Assembly (NCBI GenBank): GCA_002699025.1
Contig: PABA01000006.1
Coordinates: 1-64,000, forward strand
Direction: 5' to 3'
DNA: 64,000 nucleotides
From: Sandaracinus sp.
Lineage (GTDB): Bacteria; Myxococcota_A; Polyangia; Polyangiales; Houyiibacteriaceae
A program made the position numbers and the translations under genes. Numbering within the stretch: the stretch's first letter is position 1; every line of letters begins with the position of its first letter. This document shows, in pieces, positions 12,600 to 20,553 of the stretch. The notes below the pieces were generated by a model. The model ran no database searches, had not been told where the DNA came from, and worked only from the letters and a program-made list of their open reading frames with translations.

Positions 12600-14060
12600 G
12601 TGAGCTCTCTCGCCGCGAGAGCCGCGCCTCCGGACGCGCCGCGTGACGCGCATCGCTCCTCGGCGCGGCGCTGTCCGCTCTGTGGGGCGCGCTTCCGCGC
12701 CACCCGGCGGACCTGCGCCCACGACGGCACCGAGCTCGAGGACGTCCCGCTGGACCCGCTGATCGGCGCGACCCTCGGCGGCACCTACCGCATCGACGCC
12801 CCCCTCGGCCGCGGCGGCATGGGCCAGCTCTACGCGGCGACGCACCTCCGGCTCCGGCGGAGCGTCGCCGTGAAGGTCCTGCACGGCGCCTTCGCCGACC
12901 ACGACCTCGCCCTCGCCCGCTTCGAGCGCGAAGCGCGCGCCATGGCGCGCATCCGCTCCTCCCACGTGGCCCAGGTCCTCGACGTGCTCCGTACCCCGGA
13001 CGGCCGCCCCAGCCTGGTCGTGGAGCGCCTGGAAGGCGAAGACCTCCAGGCCCGGCTCCGCCGGGTCGGCCGCCTCACCGTCGACGAGGCCCTGGCCCTC
13101 GCCGTGGACCTCGGGCACGGCCTCGAGGCCGCCCACACCGCCGGCGTCATCCATCGCGACCTCAAGCCCTCCAACGTCTTCCTCGACGCCCAGGGCGCGA
13201 AGCTCCTCGACTTCGGCGTCGCCCACGTCGAGGAAGAGGCCGCCCTGACGAAGACCGGCACGGTGGTCGGCACGCCGACCTACATGGCCCCCGAACAGGT
13301 CCGCGGCTCGGCCGGGGTGGACGGCCGCGCCGACGTCTACGGGGCCGGAGCCATCCTCTACCGCGCCCTCACCGGCGCCCCGCCCTACGACACGGGCCCG
13401 GCCACGGCCGTCCTCTCCGCCATCCTCGAGAGCGCTCCCCCGCCCCCCTCCGCGCATGCGCCCGACCTGCCCCTCGACGTCGAGGCCTTCGTCATGCGCG
13501 CCATGAGCCGCGACCCGGAGACGCGCTTCGCGAGCGGGGCCGAGCTCGCCGCCGAGGCCGCTCGCCTCCTCGAGAAGCGCCGCGCCCCCCGCCCGCGCGG
13601 CTCCACGGCGCGCGCCACCGGCACGCTCCTCGCCACCGGCACCCTGGCCGCCCTCGCCGGCGCCTCCGCGGCCGCCGAGCAAGACCTCTCGCCCTGGTGG
13701 GGCCCGGGCGCGACCGCCCTCGCCCTGGCCCTCCTCGTCCGGCGCTGGCGGACCGACGGCGAGCTCGGCCCCCGCGGCTGGGCCCTCGCCCGCGCGCTCC
13801 GCGCCACGCTGGTCGCCTTCGCCGCCCTCACGCTCCTGGTGGCCGGCCTGGAAGCCTTCGGCGCCTCCTCACCCCGTGGCGTGGCCCCCCGTCTGGCCTT
13901 CGCGGCCCTGATCGGCGTCGCCGCCTACGTGCGTCAGAGGAGCCGCTCGAAGAGCGAGCCCGAGCCGGTCGCGAAGAGCACGGAGAACGGCTCGATCGCG
14001 AGCACGCCGTCCTCGTCCCAGAGCCGCCCGGCGATCCAGCGCACCCCGTCGCATTCCTGA
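12600..14060 (+). CDS. membrane Ser/Thr protein kinase (Hanks type)
   Basis: A 486-residue kinase starting with GTG. Residues 25-42 form a zinc-ribbon-like knuckle (CPLC and TCAHDG). The kinase domain spans about 60-330: glycine loop GRGGMG, Lys92 in VAVKVL, HRDLKPSN with Asp187, DFG at 204-206, and APEQ. About four hydrophobic segments follow (about 340-460), so the kinase faces the cytoplasm. The last 40 or so residues are Ser-rich and overlap the convergent gene at 13934-15157 by 127 bp. Kinases of this build are abundant in myxobacteria; the target is not shown. Confidence 0.93.
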   Translation: MSSLAARAAPPDAPRDAHRSSARRCPLCGARFRATRRTCAHDGTELEDVPLDPLIGATLGGTYRIDAPLGRGGMGQLYAATHLRLRRSVAVKVLHGAFADHDLALARFEREARAMARIRSSHVAQVLDVLRTPDGRPSLVVERLEGEDLQARLRRVGRLTVDEALALAVDLGHGLEAAHTAGVIHRDLKPSNVFLDAQGAKLLDFGVAHVEEEAALTKTGTVVGTPTYMAPEQVRGSAGVDGRADVYGAGAILYRALTGAPPYDTGPATAVLSAILESAPPPPSAHAPDLPLDVEAFVMRAMSRDPETRFASGAELAAEAARLLEKRRAPRPRGSTARATGTLLATGTLAALAGASAAAEQDLSPWWGPGATALALALLVRRWRTDGELGPRGWALARALRATLVAFAALTLLVAGLEAFGASSPRGVAPRLAFAALIGVAAYVRQRSRSKSEPEPVAKSTENGSIASTPSSSQSRPAIQRTPSHS

Positions 14061-15157
14061 GCGAGGGCGCCGAGCCGCCCCGCCACGGCGGGCTCCAGGC
14101 TCAAGGCCAGCGCGTCTCCCTCCCCGTCCATGACGAGGCGCCGGTCCACGTCCAGCTCATCCACCCCCACCACCGCGAAGGGCTCCGCCAGGGCCGGGAA
14201 GGCCTTCAGCGACGAGCGGAACTCGGGGCGGAGCGACTCGTAGCGCGGCGCGGCCACCTGCGTCGTCCGGTCCCAGAGCGCGTCCGTCACCCGTGGCGAG
14301 ACCGCGTACTGCATCAGCCGCAGCCGCCTCGGCACGGGCCCCGCCTCCACCTCGGCGAGCCCCGCGATCACCTGCCTCGGGCACGGCCCGACCGATCCCG
14401 GCTCGGTCCGCCCGCGGTCCTCCCGGTAGAGCGCCCCGGTGGTCGTGCAGAGCATGTAGCGCCGCTGGATCGATCCCCGCGACGTGCCCGCGATCCACTC
14501 CCGGGCCACCTCGACGAGCGTCCGGTCGAAGACCGTCTCCCGCTCCCCCTCGAGATCCCCGGGCCGACCGAGCCACGCCTGGAGCCGCCGCGCCCCTTCC
14601 TGCCCGCCTTCCCCCCCGCGGAGCTCCGCCACCACCCGGGCCGCCCCGTCGAGCACCTGCGCCACGGCCGGCGTGTCCTGATCCGCCAGCGCCGTCCGCA
14701 GCCGCCCCACGAAGCGCGCGATCCCCACGGGCACGGGCGGGCTCACGCAGCCGAGGAGCCGCTCGATGGCCTCGTCCACGCTGGCCGCGCCATAGGCCTC
14801 GGCCACGCCCATGCGCACCACCGCGACGAGGAGCTCGTCGAGGGCGTCCGCGATCTCGGCATGCTCCGCGCGGGGAGCCTTGGCGCTCGGCTCCTCGCCC
14901 GGCTCGTCCTGCTCCGTCGGCGCCTCGTAGGCCCCCGCCAGGAGCGCCAGCGCCGCCCGCACGTGGGGCCCGTCCTGCCGCCCGTCCGTCGCCGCGACCA
15001 GCAGCGCGCCGCCCTCCTTCAGCGTCACGGTGACGAGCTCCGTCCGCCCCGCCGCCGTCACCTCGAGCGACACGCGGCGCACCTCCCCGGCCCCGCCCTC
15101 GTCCGCGCGCAGCGCCTCCAGCGCCGCCCGCGCCGCGTCCGGGAGCGACGCCGTCAC
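13934..15157 (-). CDS. conserved-looking protein of unknown function, third gene of a coupled trio
   Basis: A 407-residue protein starting at GTG 15157, whose GTGA overlaps the stop of the HEAT/TPR gene upstream. I do not recognise a family. The N-terminal segment (VTVTLKEGGALLVAATDGRQDGPHVRAALALL) faintly recalls a SWIM zinc motif that has lost its cysteines; this is a guess. Later parts look like a globular alpha/beta domain (REWIAGTSRGSIQRRYMLC, PRQVIAGLAEVEAGPVP). There is no signal peptide or membrane helix, so it should be cytoplasmic. Its 3' end overlaps the kinase gene tail to tail. Confidence 0.8.
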   Translation of the reverse strand: MTASLPDAARAALEALRADEGGAGEVRRVSLEVTAAGRTELVTVTLKEGGALLVAATDGRQDGPHVRAALALLAGAYEAPTEQDEPGEEPSAKAPRAEHAEIADALDELLVAVVRMGVAEAYGAASVDEAIERLLGCVSPPVPVGIARFVGRLRTALADQDTPAVAQVLDGAARVVAELRGGEGGQEGARRLQAWLGRPGDLEGERETVFDRTLVEVAREWIAGTSRGSIQRRYMLCTTTGALYREDRGRTEPGSVGPCPRQVIAGLAEVEAGPVPRRLRLMQYAVSPRVTDALWDRTTQVAAPRYESLRPEFRSSLKAFPALAEPFAVVGVDELDVDRRLVMDGEGDALALSLEPAVAGRLGALAQECDGVRWIAGRLWDEDGVLAIEPFSVLFATGSGSLFERLL

Positions 15158-16908
15158 GCCGCCCTCTGCAGCGCCTTGCGCCGCCGCTGGATCTCGAAGC
15201 GCACCGCCGGCGGCGCGCGCCGCAGGTCGAGGTCGAGCACCTCGCCGAGGAGCCCGCGCGCGATGTCGTGCCGCCCGTCCCGCTCCACCTGCTCCGCGCG
15301 GCGCAGGAAGGTCTGCGCCAGCGAGCGAATGGTGATCGGGTTCCGCTCGACCATGCTCCTGTCCGTCTCGATGGCCCGCCGGAACGCCGCCAGCGCCGCC
15401 GCGTGCTTCCGCCGCCGCGCGTGGTTCAGCGCGATGGCCACCCAGGGCCGCGCCCAACCCGGCCGGAGCGTCGCCGCCTGCTCGAGGCGCGCGATGCCCG
15501 CCTTCACCACGCCGAAGGCCAGCAGGAGCTGCCCGAAGAGGTAGCTCCGGAACGCCTTGAAGCGCGCCCCGGTCGGCGTCTCCGGCCGCTCCTCGTGGGC
15601 CAGCCGGATCGCCTGCGTCGTCTCCTCGAGGCTCTCGTCCAGCTCCTCGCCCCGCAGCTCCATGCGCGCGACGATCGCGAGCCGCGCCTCCTCCGCCGCG
15701 GCCCGGACCGCCGACACCCGCGTCGAGGCCTCCAGCTCCGCCAGCGGCCGGAGCGCCCGCGCGTCCCCAACCCGCGCGAGCGTCTGCACGGCGCCGAGGG
15801 TGAGCGCGCCCCCCTCCTCGAGCAGCGCCGCCACCGCCTCCGTGTCCTCGGCGCCGCCGAGAGTCTCGAGCGCCTCGAGCGCCGCGAGCTGCACCTCCGG
15901 GTCGTCCCGCTGGAGGAGCTGCCGCACGTAGTCGAGCCCGCGCCGATCCCCCCAGCTCCCGAGCGCCGCCGCCAGCACGGCCCGCGTCGAGTCGACCACC
16001 GAGCGCTCGTAGGCCCGCTCGACCGAGGGGCGGATGCGCGGGTCCTCGATCCGCCGGAGCGCCCGCGCGGCCTCCGTCACGATCTCCGGGCTGCCGCTGT
16101 CCAGGAGGCTCGTGAGCGAGGGCACGAGCCGCGGGTCCCCGGCGTGGCGCAGCGACTCGAGCAGCTCGCGCCGGGCGCCGCGGGAGCTCACGCCGTCGAC
16201 GCCCTCGAGCACGGCGGCCAGGTGGCCGATGACGAGCGGCGGCAGGTCGCGCGTGCGCTGGAGGATCTGCGCCCGCTCGTCGCCGGGCAGGTCCCCGACC
16301 GGCTCCACGCTCCGCTGGGCGTCCCAGAAGTCGTCGATGGCCTGCTCGAGCCGGTCCACGCGCCGCTTCCAGGTCTCCCGATCGGCCCGCGCCGCCCGCC
16401 CCCGCGCCCCGCCGAGAGACTCACGGGCCCGGGCCAGGTCCTGCTCCAGCTCCACGTCGCGGATCGCCTCGCAGGTCTCGATGATCTGCTTCTGCTCGCG
16501 CCCCGGCCGATCCCCCAGGTTCTCCACGAGGTGCTGGAGCACCGCCCGGCGCTGCCGGAGGCTGCCCCCGCGGAGGACGGCGAGGAGGGTCTGCAGGTCG
16601 TCCACCTGGTCGACGGCGATCGCGTCGCTGCCCCGGCCCTCCAGCCGCCCGAGGAGCGACGAGTCCGCGCTCGGCGCCCCGTCCTCCTCGCCGGCGTCGA
16701 CCTCGACCGCCACCTCCACCGGCCGCCGGCCCGCGTCCGCGACGCTCACGGCGGCCACGATCTGCACCAGCGAGCGCGCGACGTGCCGATCGTCCGCGTC
16801 CGAGCCCAGGCCGAGCTCGCCGCGCACGGCGTCCGCGGGCCCGCCCCCGAGCCCCGCCTGGAGGGCGTCGAGGAGGCGTTCGATCCGGGGCTCGAAGCGG
16901 GAGCTCAT
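15154..16908 (-). CDS. HEAT-repeat/TPR scaffold protein
   Basis: A 584-residue cytoplasmic protein from the ATG at 16908 (ATGA overlap with the propeller gene). Residues about 120-200 are charged helices, possibly coiled coil. HEAT-like repeats fill about 205-400 (VPSLTSLLDSGSPEIVTEAA, LLQRDDPEVQLAALEALETL). TPR-like helices follow (GIARLEQAATLRPGWARPWV, AALAAFRRAIETD). Such proteins usually hold partner proteins together. Coupling to both neighbours suggests a three-protein assembly; its role is unknown. Confidence 0.85.
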   Translation of the reverse strand: MSSRFEPRIERLLDALQAGLGGGPADAVRGELGLGSDADDRHVARSLVQIVAAVSVADAGRRPVEVAVEVDAGEEDGAPSADSSLLGRLEGRGSDAIAVDQVDDLQTLLAVLRGGSLRQRRAVLQHLVENLGDRPGREQKQIIETCEAIRDVELEQDLARARESLGGARGRAARADRETWKRRVDRLEQAIDDFWDAQRSVEPVGDLPGDERAQILQRTRDLPPLVIGHLAAVLEGVDGVSSRGARRELLESLRHAGDPRLVPSLTSLLDSGSPEIVTEAARALRRIEDPRIRPSVERAYERSVVDSTRAVLAAALGSWGDRRGLDYVRQLLQRDDPEVQLAALEALETLGGAEDTEAVAALLEEGGALTLGAVQTLARVGDARALRPLAELEASTRVSAVRAAAEEARLAIVARMELRGEELDESLEETTQAIRLAHEERPETPTGARFKAFRSYLFGQLLLAFGVVKAGIARLEQAATLRPGWARPWVAIALNHARRRKHAAALAAFRRAIETDRSMVERNPITIRSLAQTFLRRAEQVERDGRHDIARGLLGEVLDLDLRRAPPAVRFEIQRRRKALQRAA

Positions 16909-18536
16909 GCGTGCGCGAGGCGGAGCCGCCAGAGCCCGGCCCCGGTCGCCACGAGGACGGCGCCGGAGCGAGGCGAGAGGGCGTGGATGCGCTGATCGTC
17001 GCCCGGTTCGGCCCGCGTCCCCGAAGTGTTCCCCAGCGCGACCCGGAGGTCGAGAACCAGGCGAGGCGCGTCGCCGGCCCCGGCGGCGCTGAGCAGCACG
17101 CCCCGGTCCTGCGAGGCGAGGTGCCGGGCCGCGAGCAGCGCCCCCCCGGCGAAGGCCACGAGGTGCGCGCCCGCGAGCGCGTCGAGGCGCTCCCAGCGCC
17201 CGGCGGCGAAGTGGGCCGGCCCCGCGGCCTCGCCCTCGCCGGCCACCGCCAGCTGCTCCCCGCGCGCCGCCAGCCGGTAGGCGCGCCCCGCCTCCCGCGC
17301 GAGCGGCGCCCCCACCGCGTCGAAGGCGCGCCCATCGACCCGCGCCCGGAGGAAGTCGAGCTGGCCCCCGCTGCCGACGAGGACGACCAGGCGGCCCTCC
17401 TCGTCCAGCGTCGCGTCCAGCACGGGCGAGGGGAGCACGGGCCCGGTCCAGCGGGAGCCGAGGTCCTCGCTCCGGTAGAGCGCGCCGCCCGCCCAGAGCC
17501 AGAGTCGCCCCGCCCCGTCGAAGCGCACGTGGCAGCCCACCGAGGGCTCGCCCCCGCTGCGCCAGCCGTTGATCGGCTCGAAACGCGCGCCCCCGTCCAT
17601 CGAGCGGAAGACGCCGCCGAGGCGGGTGCCGACGATCACCGCGTCCGGCGCGGCCGCCACCGTCAGCAGCTCCTCCGCCTCGAGCCCCTCGGCCCGCACC
17701 GTCTCCGGGAGCGCCCCGGCCCCGGCGTCCACCGGGAGGCGCACCAGCTCGTCCGACGCGACCCAGAGCACCTCCCCGACGACCGTCACGTCGTAGGCGG
17801 GCCCGCGAAAGAGGCGCTCCGCCGGGAGGTCCAGCGGCGGCGGGAGCTGCGAGCCCATGAGCCGCGCCTCCTCCTCGAAGCTGAGGGGAGCGAGGTCGAT
17901 GTCGCCATCGCCCTGGAGGTCGAGATCGTCGGCGAGCTCCTCGCCGTCCTCGTCGCCCAGCCCCTCGTCCAGAGGCGGCAAGCCCGCCAGGTCGTCGTCC
18001 CCGTCGAAGTGGAGCCCCGCGTCCACGTCGAAGAGCGCCCCGTCGTCCTCCTCGGTGCCGTCGCGGATCTCGTCGACCAGGTCTTCGTCGTCCCACTCGG
18101 CCGAGTCGAAGGTCTCGGTGCCGTCCGTCCAGCCGTACTCACCGGCCTCCGAATCCGCGACGCCCTCCCCGAGCCCGCCGACCAGGTCCCCCGCCTCTTC
18201 CGCGTCGCTCAGGTCCACCGCCTCGTCGAGCCCCTCGTCGAGGAAGTCGACGGGGTCGAAGTCGTCCAGGCCCTCCGCCGCGTCGAGGCCGATCTCTTCT
18301 TCCTCGCCGAGGTCGAGCCCGAGGCCCGGATCCACGTCGATGCCCTCCTCCTCTTCCTCGCCCACGGCCGGCAGGGGCGGCAGGTCGAGCGCGTCGTCGT
18401 CGAGGACGTCGTCGTCGAAGGCGTCCGGATGCGCGTCCTCGCCGTCCTGGAGGTCGGCGTCGGGGACCTCGGCATCGGCGACATCCGGGTCGAGGACGTC
18501 GCGGCCGTCGAAGTCGTCGTCGGGTTCGAAGGGCAC
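16905..18536 (-). CDS. acidic-N-terminal, propeller-like protein of unknown function
   Basis: A 543-residue protein from the GTG at 18536 (an in-frame ATG at 18677 would add 47 residues unlike the rest). Residues 1 to about 235 are extraordinarily acidic and Gly/Leu-rich, and probably disordered. From about 255 on there are repeated beta motifs with SMDGGARFEPINGW and RSEDLGSRWTGPVL, typical of BNR/Ycf48-like propellers. No signal peptide is evident. First of three genes joined by 4-bp overlaps (with 15154-16908 and 13934-15157). Function unknown. Confidence 0.82.
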   Translation of the reverse strand: MPFEPDDDFDGRDVLDPDVADAEVPDADLQDGEDAHPDAFDDDVLDDDALDLPPLPAVGEEEEEGIDVDPGLGLDLGEEEEIGLDAAEGLDDFDPVDFLDEGLDEAVDLSDAEEAGDLVGGLGEGVADSEAGEYGWTDGTETFDSAEWDDEDLVDEIRDGTEEDDGALFDVDAGLHFDGDDDLAGLPPLDEGLGDEDGEELADDLDLQGDGDIDLAPLSFEEEARLMGSQLPPPLDLPAERLFRGPAYDVTVVGEVLWVASDELVRLPVDAGAGALPETVRAEGLEAEELLTVAAAPDAVIVGTRLGGVFRSMDGGARFEPINGWRSGGEPSVGCHVRFDGAGRLWLWAGGALYRSEDLGSRWTGPVLPSPVLDATLDEEGRLVVLVGSGGQLDFLRARVDGRAFDAVGAPLAREAGRAYRLAARGEQLAVAGEGEAAGPAHFAAGRWERLDALAGAHLVAFAGGALLAARHLASQDRGVLLSAAGAGDAPRLVLDLRVALGNTSGTRAEPGDDQRIHALSPRSGAVLVATGAGLWRLRLAHA

Positions 18537-18701: not shown

Positions 18702-19613
18702 TCAGCCCTTCCCCGGCACCGGCTTGCCCAGCCGGGCCATGACCTTCTGCAGGTCCTGCCACACCGGCCGCTTGAACTGCGGCGAGCGGAGGAGGAAAGC
18801 CGGATGGTAGGTCGGCATCACGGGGACGCCTCGCCAGCTCCCCCAGCGGCCCCGCCAGCCGCGCCCGCCCGGCTCCACCACGCCGAGGTTCTCCGCGGCG
18901 CAGCGCCCGAGCGCGACGATCACCTTCGGCGCGACGAGGTCCAGCTGAGGCTCCAGGAAGCGCGCGCACGCGCCGGCCTCGTCGGGCTTCGGCGTGCGGT
19001 TCTGCGGCGGGCGGCACTTGACGACGTTGCAGATGTAGACCGCGTCGCGCTCGTAGCCCATGGCCGCGATCATCTTGTCGAGGAGGTGCCCCGCCTTGCC
19101 GACGAAGGGGAGCCCCTGCTGGTCCTCGTGGTAGCCGGGGCCCTCGCCGACGAAGGCCAGGTCCGTGAAGGGGGTGCCGCGGGCGAAGACGCTGCGCGTG
19201 CGGCCCTCGTGAAGGCGGCAGCGCGTGCACTCGGCGGCGTCCTCCTGGAGCACGCGGAGCTCGGCGATGACGTCCCCCGGGTGGGTGCTCGGCTCCGCCG
19301 CCCGCGGCTCGGGCTCGCGCGCCGGCTCGGGCTGCGGAGTCGGCGCAGGCTCGCGCGCCGGCGGCTGCGAGGCGGCGGGAGGGCGGGGAGCCGCCGCGCT
19401 CGTCGAAGACGACGTCTGCCGCACGGGCGGCCTCGGCTCGGCCGGGGGCATCGCCGCGTCCCCGACCAGCTCCGTGAAGGGCGCCGTGGAGGCCGGAAAG
19501 GGCGGCGGCTCCACCGCCGGCACCCCGACGCCACCGAGCTCCTCTTCCCAGCGAAGCAGGGCGCGCGCCGCGTCCGCGAGCTCCTGCAATTCCGCTCGGG
19601 CGTCGTCTTCCAC
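18702..19613 (-). CDS. uracil-DNA glycosylase, family 4 (Fe-S type)
   Basis: A 303-residue enzyme that removes uracil from DNA. I use the GTG at 19613; the upstream frame overlaps the divergent promoter. The first 110 residues are a Pro/Ala/Glu-rich linker. The core has GEGPGYHEDQQGLPFVGKAG (active-site loop), NVVKCRPPQNR, and the C-terminal HPAFLLR. Four cysteines (about 129, 132, 200, 216) match the [4Fe-4S] ligands of family 4 enzymes. The long N-terminal linker is unusual. Confidence 0.92.
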   Translation of the reverse strand: MEDDARAELQELADAARALLRWEEELGGVGVPAVEPPPFPASTAPFTELVGDAAMPPAEPRPPVRQTSSSTSAAAPRPPAASQPPAREPAPTPQPEPAREPEPRAAEPSTHPGDVIAELRVLQEDAAECTRCRLHEGRTRSVFARGTPFTDLAFVGEGPGYHEDQQGLPFVGKAGHLLDKMIAAMGYERDAVYICNVVKCRPPQNRTPKPDEAGACARFLEPQLDLVAPKVIVALGRCAAENLGVVEPGGRGWRGRWGSWRGVPVMPTYHPAFLLRSPQFKRPVWQDLQKVMARLGKPVPGKG

Positions 19614-19683
19614 GGCGCAGGCGTATCGAGGCGGAGGGCCGAGGGCAAGGGCCGATCGCCGAGCCCGCCCGGACCCGCGCAGG

Positions 19684-19710
19684 AAAAGAAGCCCCCTCCT
19701 TCGGGCTTTC
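19684..19710 (-). terminator. intrinsic-terminator-like hairpin in the leader of the glycosylase gene
   Basis: On the minus strand, AAGCCC and GGGCTT pair around an 8-base loop and TTCTTTT follows directly. This is the form of a Rho-independent terminator and it lies about 70 bp upstream of the uracil-DNA glycosylase start. It may block transcripts entering from the PP2C side or act as an attenuator. On the plus strand the hairpin is followed by a weaker T-rich stretch. Confidence 0.5.
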
Positions 19711-19712
19711 GT

Positions 19713-19742
19713 TTGACCGCAGGGCGAGCGGCCACGTAGGCT
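19713..19742 (+). promoter_or_regulatory. sigma70-like promoter of the PP2C gene
   Basis: TTGACC at 19713-19718 and TAGGCT at 19737-19742 are separated by 18 bp. Transcription would start about 25 bp before the GTG at 19774, and a GGAGG ribosome site (19759-19763) lies between. Assigned by eye. Confidence 0.45.
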
Positions 19743-19773
19743 CTTCGCGAATGTTTTCGGAGGTCTGGACCCC

Positions 19774-20553
<780 letters not shown>

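Follow-up and report, generated by a model that had tools for sequence, protein, structure and literature searches.

A conserved gene pair and a separable acidic partner gene beside a family-4 uracil-DNA glycosylase gene in Polyangia

The DNA-binding domain of BRCA2 joins a helical domain to OB folds and works with a very acidic partner, DSS1, which, according to an excerpt of PMC8191791, engages the helical and OB1 part of BRCA2. Here we describe a three-gene operon in a 64,000-nucleotide stretch of Sandaracinus sp. DNA (GenBank assembly GCA_002699025.1, contig PABA01000006.1, positions 1 to 64,000; the whole stretch is called the window below) that resembles this arrangement, in that one protein (gene 3) is predicted to carry a helical domain followed by OB-like folds and another (gene 1) is very acidic, while the third (gene 2) is a HEAT/TPR scaffold. 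The first OB-like fold of gene 3 aligned with a BRCA2 OB fold (1miu, Z 7.3, 94 residues, root-mean-square deviation (rmsd) 3.8). Unlike BRCA2-DSS1, the operon is bacterial, its gene 1 has a propeller-like part and its gene 3 a SWIM-like N-terminus, it is not known to have a RAD51-type partner, and the likeness drawn here is one of architecture.

Other described systems share single features with the operon. In HIN-200 domains a two-helix linker connects the OB folds, and the HIN-200 proteins IFI16, p202 and p204, which gave the top Foldseek rows, have the order of OB fold, two-helix linker and OB fold that the model suggests for gene 3; they differ in that VIA-align superposed both folds with an rmsd of about 5 or more and in that they are eukaryotic innate-immune proteins, so that the likeness may be convergent. 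The SWIM domain (PF04434), a CxC..CxH finger plus a following helix, appears to have a counterpart in some relatives of gene 3, whereas the gene 3 of the window has lost the Cys residues, and outside this finger no Pfam family matched gene 3. The MoxR-vWA ternary conflict systems, as far as the available text of PMC7159879 goes, are likewise multi-gene units, some with a beta-propeller; SWIM is mentioned nowhere in its main text, and a scan of six window proteins and sixteen neighbour proteins showed no MoxR or vWA gene. Finally, protein inhibitors of uracil-DNA glycosylase (UDG), the subject of PMC10303552 in its available part, tie the idea of DNA mimicry to UDG, as the present locus may do; those are viral inhibitors of Ung, whereas here a long motif-bearing tail is encoded beside a family-4 UDG, and inhibition would be hypothetical.

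Organization and distribution of the three genes

As the initial annotation had described, three genes on the minus strand are joined by two 4-bp overlaps. These are gene 1 (18536-16905, GTG start, 543 aa), gene 2 (16908-15154, ATG start, 584 aa) and gene 3 (15157-13934, GTG start, 407 aa), with the stop-start overlaps ATGA at 16905-16908 and GTGA at 15154-15157, and a codon-usage gene caller chose the identical start for each. Genes 1 and 3 matched no Pfam family at E 1, which agrees with the earlier statement that the operon has no assigned function, and neither is covered above cut-off by a Pfam, PHROGs or NCBIfam family.

We found that gene 3 stands directly behind gene 2 in 47 of 48 gene-2 loci, the contig of the 48th ending 182 bp further on. 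Used as a query, gene 3 found a match in 31 of 37 genomes, the window's own counted, and gene 2 did so in 31 of 37 as well, two of them (G005 and G027; all family, genus, locus and genome labels, such as f1, g2, L080 and G005, are internal to the analysis) by weak, HEAT-type matches. When named genomes were searched with gene 2, 30 loci came up, each with gene 3 adjoining; they are not fresh evidence because they come largely from the same genomes as the main locus set. Across the class, gene 2 was detected in 51 of 289 genomes, the weakest case (G265) being a HEAT-type match in a long frame, and a phylum-level search found gene 3 in 30 of 377 genomes, every one of the 30 belonging to the window's class. 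A single 4-bp overlap is ordinary, because 19 of 100 other close same-strand neighbour pairs (16 loci, own gene calls) also overlap by -4; unlike one such overlap, its conservation between genes 2 and 3, which overlap by exactly 4 bp in 26 of the 48 loci, is out of the ordinary. We think it probable that the products of genes 2 and 3 assemble into a new complex. As a separate observation, genome G023 has a second gene-3 copy (L102), partly masked, with no gene 2 called beside it.

Gene 1 is a frequent yet dispensable partner of this two-gene core. Its presence was assigned by position before gene 2 in the 48 loci, 7 of which have less than 600 bp upstream, and a 94-aa acidic frame close to a contig end (L129) was left out of the count. 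Gene 1 so defined precedes gene 2 in 27 of the 48 loci: in 18 with both its acidic tail and its propeller part, in 8 with the tail only (L072, L081, L084, L085, L086, L136, L137 and L140), and in one, L089, with the propeller only. The overlap with gene 2 is -4 in 15 of these 27, and gene 1 is present in L088 as well, where the gene call displaced gene 2. No gene 1 was found in front of the pair in f2, f4 and f11 or in genus g2, a member of the window's own family; nor was one seen in the genus-g5 loci of f1 or in the f64 locus.

In the reverse direction, a search of all frames gave no gene-3 match in any of 18 other gene-1 loci (L248, L264 and L279-L294), which represent f12, f17, f5 and part of f9; among them, the contig of L294 breaks off within gene 2, and in L287 two frames, of 1060 and 424 aa, give HEAT-type gene-2 matches, gene 3 being missing there too. 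Two like-drawn searches of 377 genomes yielded 32 genomes with a gene-1 match starting in the tail and the 30 with gene 3 given above; genes 1 and 3 occur together in 9 genomes, or in 14 when short or diverged copies of gene 1 found by position are counted. The propeller part alone, in a single-sequence search, matched 7 of 37 genomes, and a gene-1 profile applied with looser cut-offs matched 117 of 289 genomes of the class, its weak matches, mostly to the propeller part only, being left out of the counts. Because gene 1 occurs without gene 3 and the pair occurs without gene 1, the operon comprises two modules, the pair of genes 2 and 3 and, apart from it, gene 1. The fixed three-part stoichiometry that had been read from the overlaps is thereby not supported, and the expectation that the trio is kept together in relatives holds for genes 2 and 3 and fails for gene 1.

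The trio also occurs as a block in a different neighbourhood, in two f12 loci (L128, L130). In 6 of the 8 f12 loci with gene 1 and without gene 3, an aspartokinase-type gene of about 400 aa lies near gene 1; the three of these put to the test proved to be Pfam AA_kinase, as did the genes that flank the trio in L128 and L130. Two small divergent genes, of 74-98 and 214-237 aa, stand beside gene 1 in 6 of the 8 f12 loci as well (L279, L281, L282, L283, L285 and L292).

Predicted architecture of the three proteins

The third protein, called unknown in the initial annotation, indeed has no Pfam or NCBIfam family at E 1 and no PHROGs or PADLOC family at E 0.01, and its profile reached a best E of only 0.16 against PDB sequences; yet it has a recognisable plan. 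A structural model built from 28 sequences (predicted local distance difference test score (pLDDT) 89.1, predicted template-modelling score 0.77) places strands and a helix at residues 28-73, helices at 95-196, a strand-rich segment at 207-287, two helices, and a second strand-rich segment at 327-405. By this model, gene 3 (13934..15157, minus strand) is a protein with a degenerate, zinc-less SWIM-like N-terminus (28-73), a helical domain (95-204), a first OB-like fold (205-287), two helices and a second OB-like fold (327-405).

The N-terminal assignment goes through relatives of gene 3 that retain a CxC..CxH motif, which we found in 9 of 51 gene-3 rows (L087, L099, L131-L134, L141, L142 and L144). 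In hhalign comparisons these zinc-type segments scored 96% against SWIM segments taken from PF04434 loci, a figure that is inflated because they had been cut out around that very motif; zinc-less gene 3 scored 98% against the zinc-type and 23% against SWIM, and six control segments gave 0.1-0.3%. The SWIM matches in the loci of relatives fall mostly within long open frames.

For the C-terminal half, a Foldseek search with the gene-3 model returned HIN tandem-OB entries in its first 23 rows, with a best E of 5.6e-3, none under 0.001, and a TM-score on target of about 0.35; seven of the 23 (4jbj/4jbk/4jbm) are entries that we take to be HIN domains. Among the 50 rows shown by VIA-align, residues 205-300 matched OB folds of BRCA2, telomere-end-binding protein, CST/POT1 and SSB, and residues 301-400 matched those of Teb1, RPA, RecG, Stn1 and tRNA synthetases. 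Conservation is concentrated in the first OB-like fold, since segment 205-287 holds 12 of the 19 invariant residues (p 4e-5, the segment having been picked after the model) and 8 of the 13 conserved Arg; residues 205-300 contain 15 K/R and have a net charge of +3.

Gene 2 (15154..16908, minus strand) bears out its earlier description as a HEAT/TPR scaffold. It is predicted to be an alpha-solenoid, with HEAT repeats at residues about 241-440 (HEAT_2, E 1.5e-16) and a basic TPR-like region at about 446-584 (TPR_2, sub-threshold), its model is all-helical (pLDDT 86.7), and a fold search gave generic HEAT/TPR matches. Residues 446-584 have a net charge of +17 and are rich in conserved Arg. Among PADLOC models, gene 2 matched only the HEAT part of one (HEAT-ARM_XIII, E 4.9e-6), and genes 1 and 3 matched none.

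Gene 1 proved to be as acidic at its start as had been claimed for about 235 residues, and its remainder appears propeller-like, again as proposed. The disordered-looking tail, residues 1-230 (17847..18536, minus strand), contains 91 D/E and 3 K/R and carries a ladder of motifs, LDLPPLP, ExxGLD, EYGWTDG, DDG (DDGGEEG) and LPPLDxxxxxxxxELADDLDL, the fourth of which is weak in the window's own protein. The motifs are kept in relatives both with and without the propeller part, including six aligned propeller-less proteins; across 19 sequences L52-P53 is the sole invariant pair, so that the ladder, rather than being a fixed sequence, is a partly kept motif pattern. A profile built from six short tails matched 10 of 37 genomes, 3 of which are in the profile, and it missed the gene 1 of G003, G008, G009 and G031; because every match falls at a gene-1 locus, the profile does not merely find acidic proteins. 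Of the two roles first suggested for the tail, nucleic-acid mimicry and metal binding, the second fits less well, as the conservation of motifs argues for peptide contacts.

The C-terminal part of gene 1, residues 236-543 and the stop codon (16905..17831, minus strand), appears to be a BNR/YCF48-like propeller, judging from its Asp boxes (SMDGGARF and SEDLGSRW) and profile alignment. A pattern search found Asp boxes in 13 of the 17 propeller parts of gene 1, and the propeller parts of f9, f12, f18 and L089 reached 95-96% in hhalign against the Polyangiales profile; these groups match one another poorly, at 49% at best. All Pfam BNR, YCF48 and sortilin matches in gene-1 relatives are sub-threshold, as is that of NCBIfam F510_1955 to gene 1 (22.5 vs 175 bits).

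Neighbouring genes

Upstream of the operon and on the same strand, separated from gene 1 by 165 bp, lies a UDG gene (18702..19868, minus strand, start at 19613 or 19868) that belongs to family 4, scoring 184.3 bits against the curated TIGR00758 cut-off of 125.3. Among the 32 gene-2 loci with at least 3.5 kb of upstream flank, a UDG gene is found upstream, on the same strand and within 3.5 kb in 22. The link extends to gene 1 alone: a UDG gene lies beside gene 1 in 8 of the 18 gene-1 loci without gene 3 (L286-L291, L293 and L294), and in f17, outside the window's order, the gaps between UDG and gene 1 are 0, 19, 11, -4 and -4 bp, an overlap of -4 being seen also in f3 (L090, L147). A search of all frames found no UDG match in the eight f12 gene-1 loci, in L248 or in the short L264, and the f12 trio loci L128 and L130 are located elsewhere, without UDG. 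In one genus-g2 locus (L080:10678-11600) the gap between UDG and gene 2 holds, instead of gene 1, RES-domain and Xre/MbcA/ParS antitoxin genes, which resemble a toxin-antitoxin pair.

On the other side, a Ser/Thr protein kinase gene (12600..14060, plus strand; Pkinase, E 3.6e-40) converges on gene 3, and the two frames overlap tail to tail by 127 bp (13934-14060); L072, L073, L076, L084, L085 and L090 likewise have convergent overlaps, which range over 16-283 bp. The kinase that was noted to abut the operon does so here, but of the 43 loci whose sequence runs on for at least 2.6 kb past gene 2, only about 10 show it converging directly on gene 3, namely seven with the kinase as next gene and L072, L084 and L085, where the kinase overlaps gene 3 and another frame was called; we regard it as a neighbour rather than a part of the system. 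PADLOC kinase models match it, for example PD-T4-6 (E 1.6e-85), probably through the shared kinase fold only. The PP2C gene reported beyond the operon is present (19774..20553, plus strand; Stp1 type, NF033484 256.4 bits, cut-off 230) and divergent from UDG, which lies between it and the operon and had gone unmentioned; 24 of 49 loci have PP2C upstream and on the opposite strand. Elsewhere in the window, G+C falls from about 0.70-0.78 to 0.60-0.69 across roughly 28 kb (24000-52000), perhaps a genomic island.

A possible nucleic-acid-handling complex and its alternatives

Our working hypothesis, which we hold tentatively and rate below an even chance, is a UDG-linked complex in which gene 2 scaffolds the OB/SWIM-like gene 3 and the acidic tail of gene 1 competes with nucleic acid. 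The gene 2 protein would hold the gene 3 protein as a core, with single-stranded nucleic acid, or else an acidic peptide, as the presumed ligand of the first OB-like fold of gene 3. Gene 1 would dock through its acidic ladder on the basic end of gene 2, on the Arg-rich first OB-like fold of gene 3, or on both, and once docked would displace or gate nucleic acid; the propeller, where present, may recruit another protein. Such a complex would act in or near uracil repair or other DNA repair, in a mode akin to that of helical-OB proteins and their acidic partners, such as BRCA2 and DSS1 or RPA and acidic motifs, while being no relative of either. Architecture and linkage were observed as described above; binding, activity and stoichiometry we infer from them and from charge.

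Several findings weigh against this hypothesis. The basic, Arg-rich end of gene 2 is kept in genomes without gene 1, and therefore its ligand need not be gene 1. The gene 3 of the window lacks the SWIM zinc ligands, having ATDGRQDGPH at the place of CxC..CxH, and even among seven zinc-type relatives Pfam SWIM (PF04434) gave sub-threshold matches in 3 and reached its cut-off in 0. With VIA-align, single OB folds gave Z values of 6.4-7.3 and the two halves together reached 6.9; being under 8, such values may reflect no more than a common arrangement. The two rows at the top (Z 7.8) pair the helical part of gene 3 with unrelated helical proteins, and the OB rows include listed non-nucleic-acid binders such as YgiW. 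Gene 3 is acidic overall (isoelectric point 4.78), and its second OB-like region (301-407) has a net charge of -8. UDG is out of its usual position in 10 of the 32 loci, f12 ones among them, being inverted in L092, on the other side in L086 and not found within the fetched stretch in 8. The loci counted are not independent of one another, and several of the 22 UDG-positive ones are close relatives in genus g2, so that shared synteny could explain much of the UDG link.

About as likely as a DNA-handling complex, and held with the same reserve, is a cytosolic protein-only scaffold or signalling complex without a role in nucleic acids, its acidic tail a hub of short linear motifs and UDG merely syntenic. 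HEAT/TPR repeats, propellers and OB-like surfaces all serve protein-protein contacts, the three proteins are of repeat or adaptor type, and the missing zinc ligands of the window's gene 3, the middling OB Z-scores and the position of the f12 trio loci L128 and L130 away from UDG fit this explanation too. It accounts less readily for the extension of the UDG link to two families outside the window's order (f17 and f18), for the -4 overlaps of UDG and gene 1 in f17 and f3, and for the concentration of conserved Arg in the first OB-like fold of gene 3.

Less probable, and in our judgement unlikely, is that gene 1 is the cell's own regulator of family-4 UDG, with a DNA-mimicking tail that blocks or tunes the glycosylase, and that genes 2 and 3 were added later to a UDG-gene 1 operon. 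Gene 1 does follow UDG directly where gene 3 was not found (f17, f5 and f9), and known UDG inhibitors are DNA mimics according to the available part of PMC10303552; that part, however, concerns Ung-family enzymes and viral inhibitors, gene 1 is present without a UDG match in the eight f12 loci, and genes 2 and 3 remain by UDG without gene 1 in f2, f4 and f11. More improbable still is the absence of any complex, the operon then being a set of unrelated families whose promoter is shared by descent: the separate distributions of gene 1 and the pair and the commonness of single -4 overlaps (19/100) are in its favour, but the pair persists without exception in 47 assessable loci, across several families and neighbourhoods, and in f12 (L128, L130) the trio stands as a block within a different neighbourhood. 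The least probable alternative, a complex that the nearby kinase and PP2C would switch through phosphorylation, can draw on the convergent kinase of about 10/43 loci and the upstream, opposite-strand PP2C of 24/49, yet we rejected it, as the kinase is patchy, lies on the other strand and in most loci is not beside gene 3, the GWT motif does not keep its threonine (which is R, R, A and V in L084, L085, L138 and L076), and neither kinase nor PP2C rose above thresholds in f12 and f18 loci (flanks cut in L129 and L132).

The boldest form of our UDG-linked hypothesis, which we think improbable as a whole, is a Polyangia-specific machine for handling single-stranded nucleic acid, convergent with BRCA2-DSS1 and RPA, in which an OB/SWIM-like protein on a HEAT-TPR scaffold would be gated by a nucleic-acid-mimicking acidic ladder, made together with family-4 UDG and acting on UDG products.

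The operon is not described in the titles and abstract openings of the open-licence literature searched, where we also found no paper on Sandaracinus together with uracil-DNA glycosylase; the component folds are known, and their combination and two-module behaviour appear undescribed in that literature. Two families that stay together, with a motif-bearing acidic partner, occur in many genera of one myxobacterial class and carry no curated name. If the OB reading is true, they would be a bacterial example of an OB-fold protein gated by an acidic partner, with a tie to uracil repair in genomes that are large and GC-rich.

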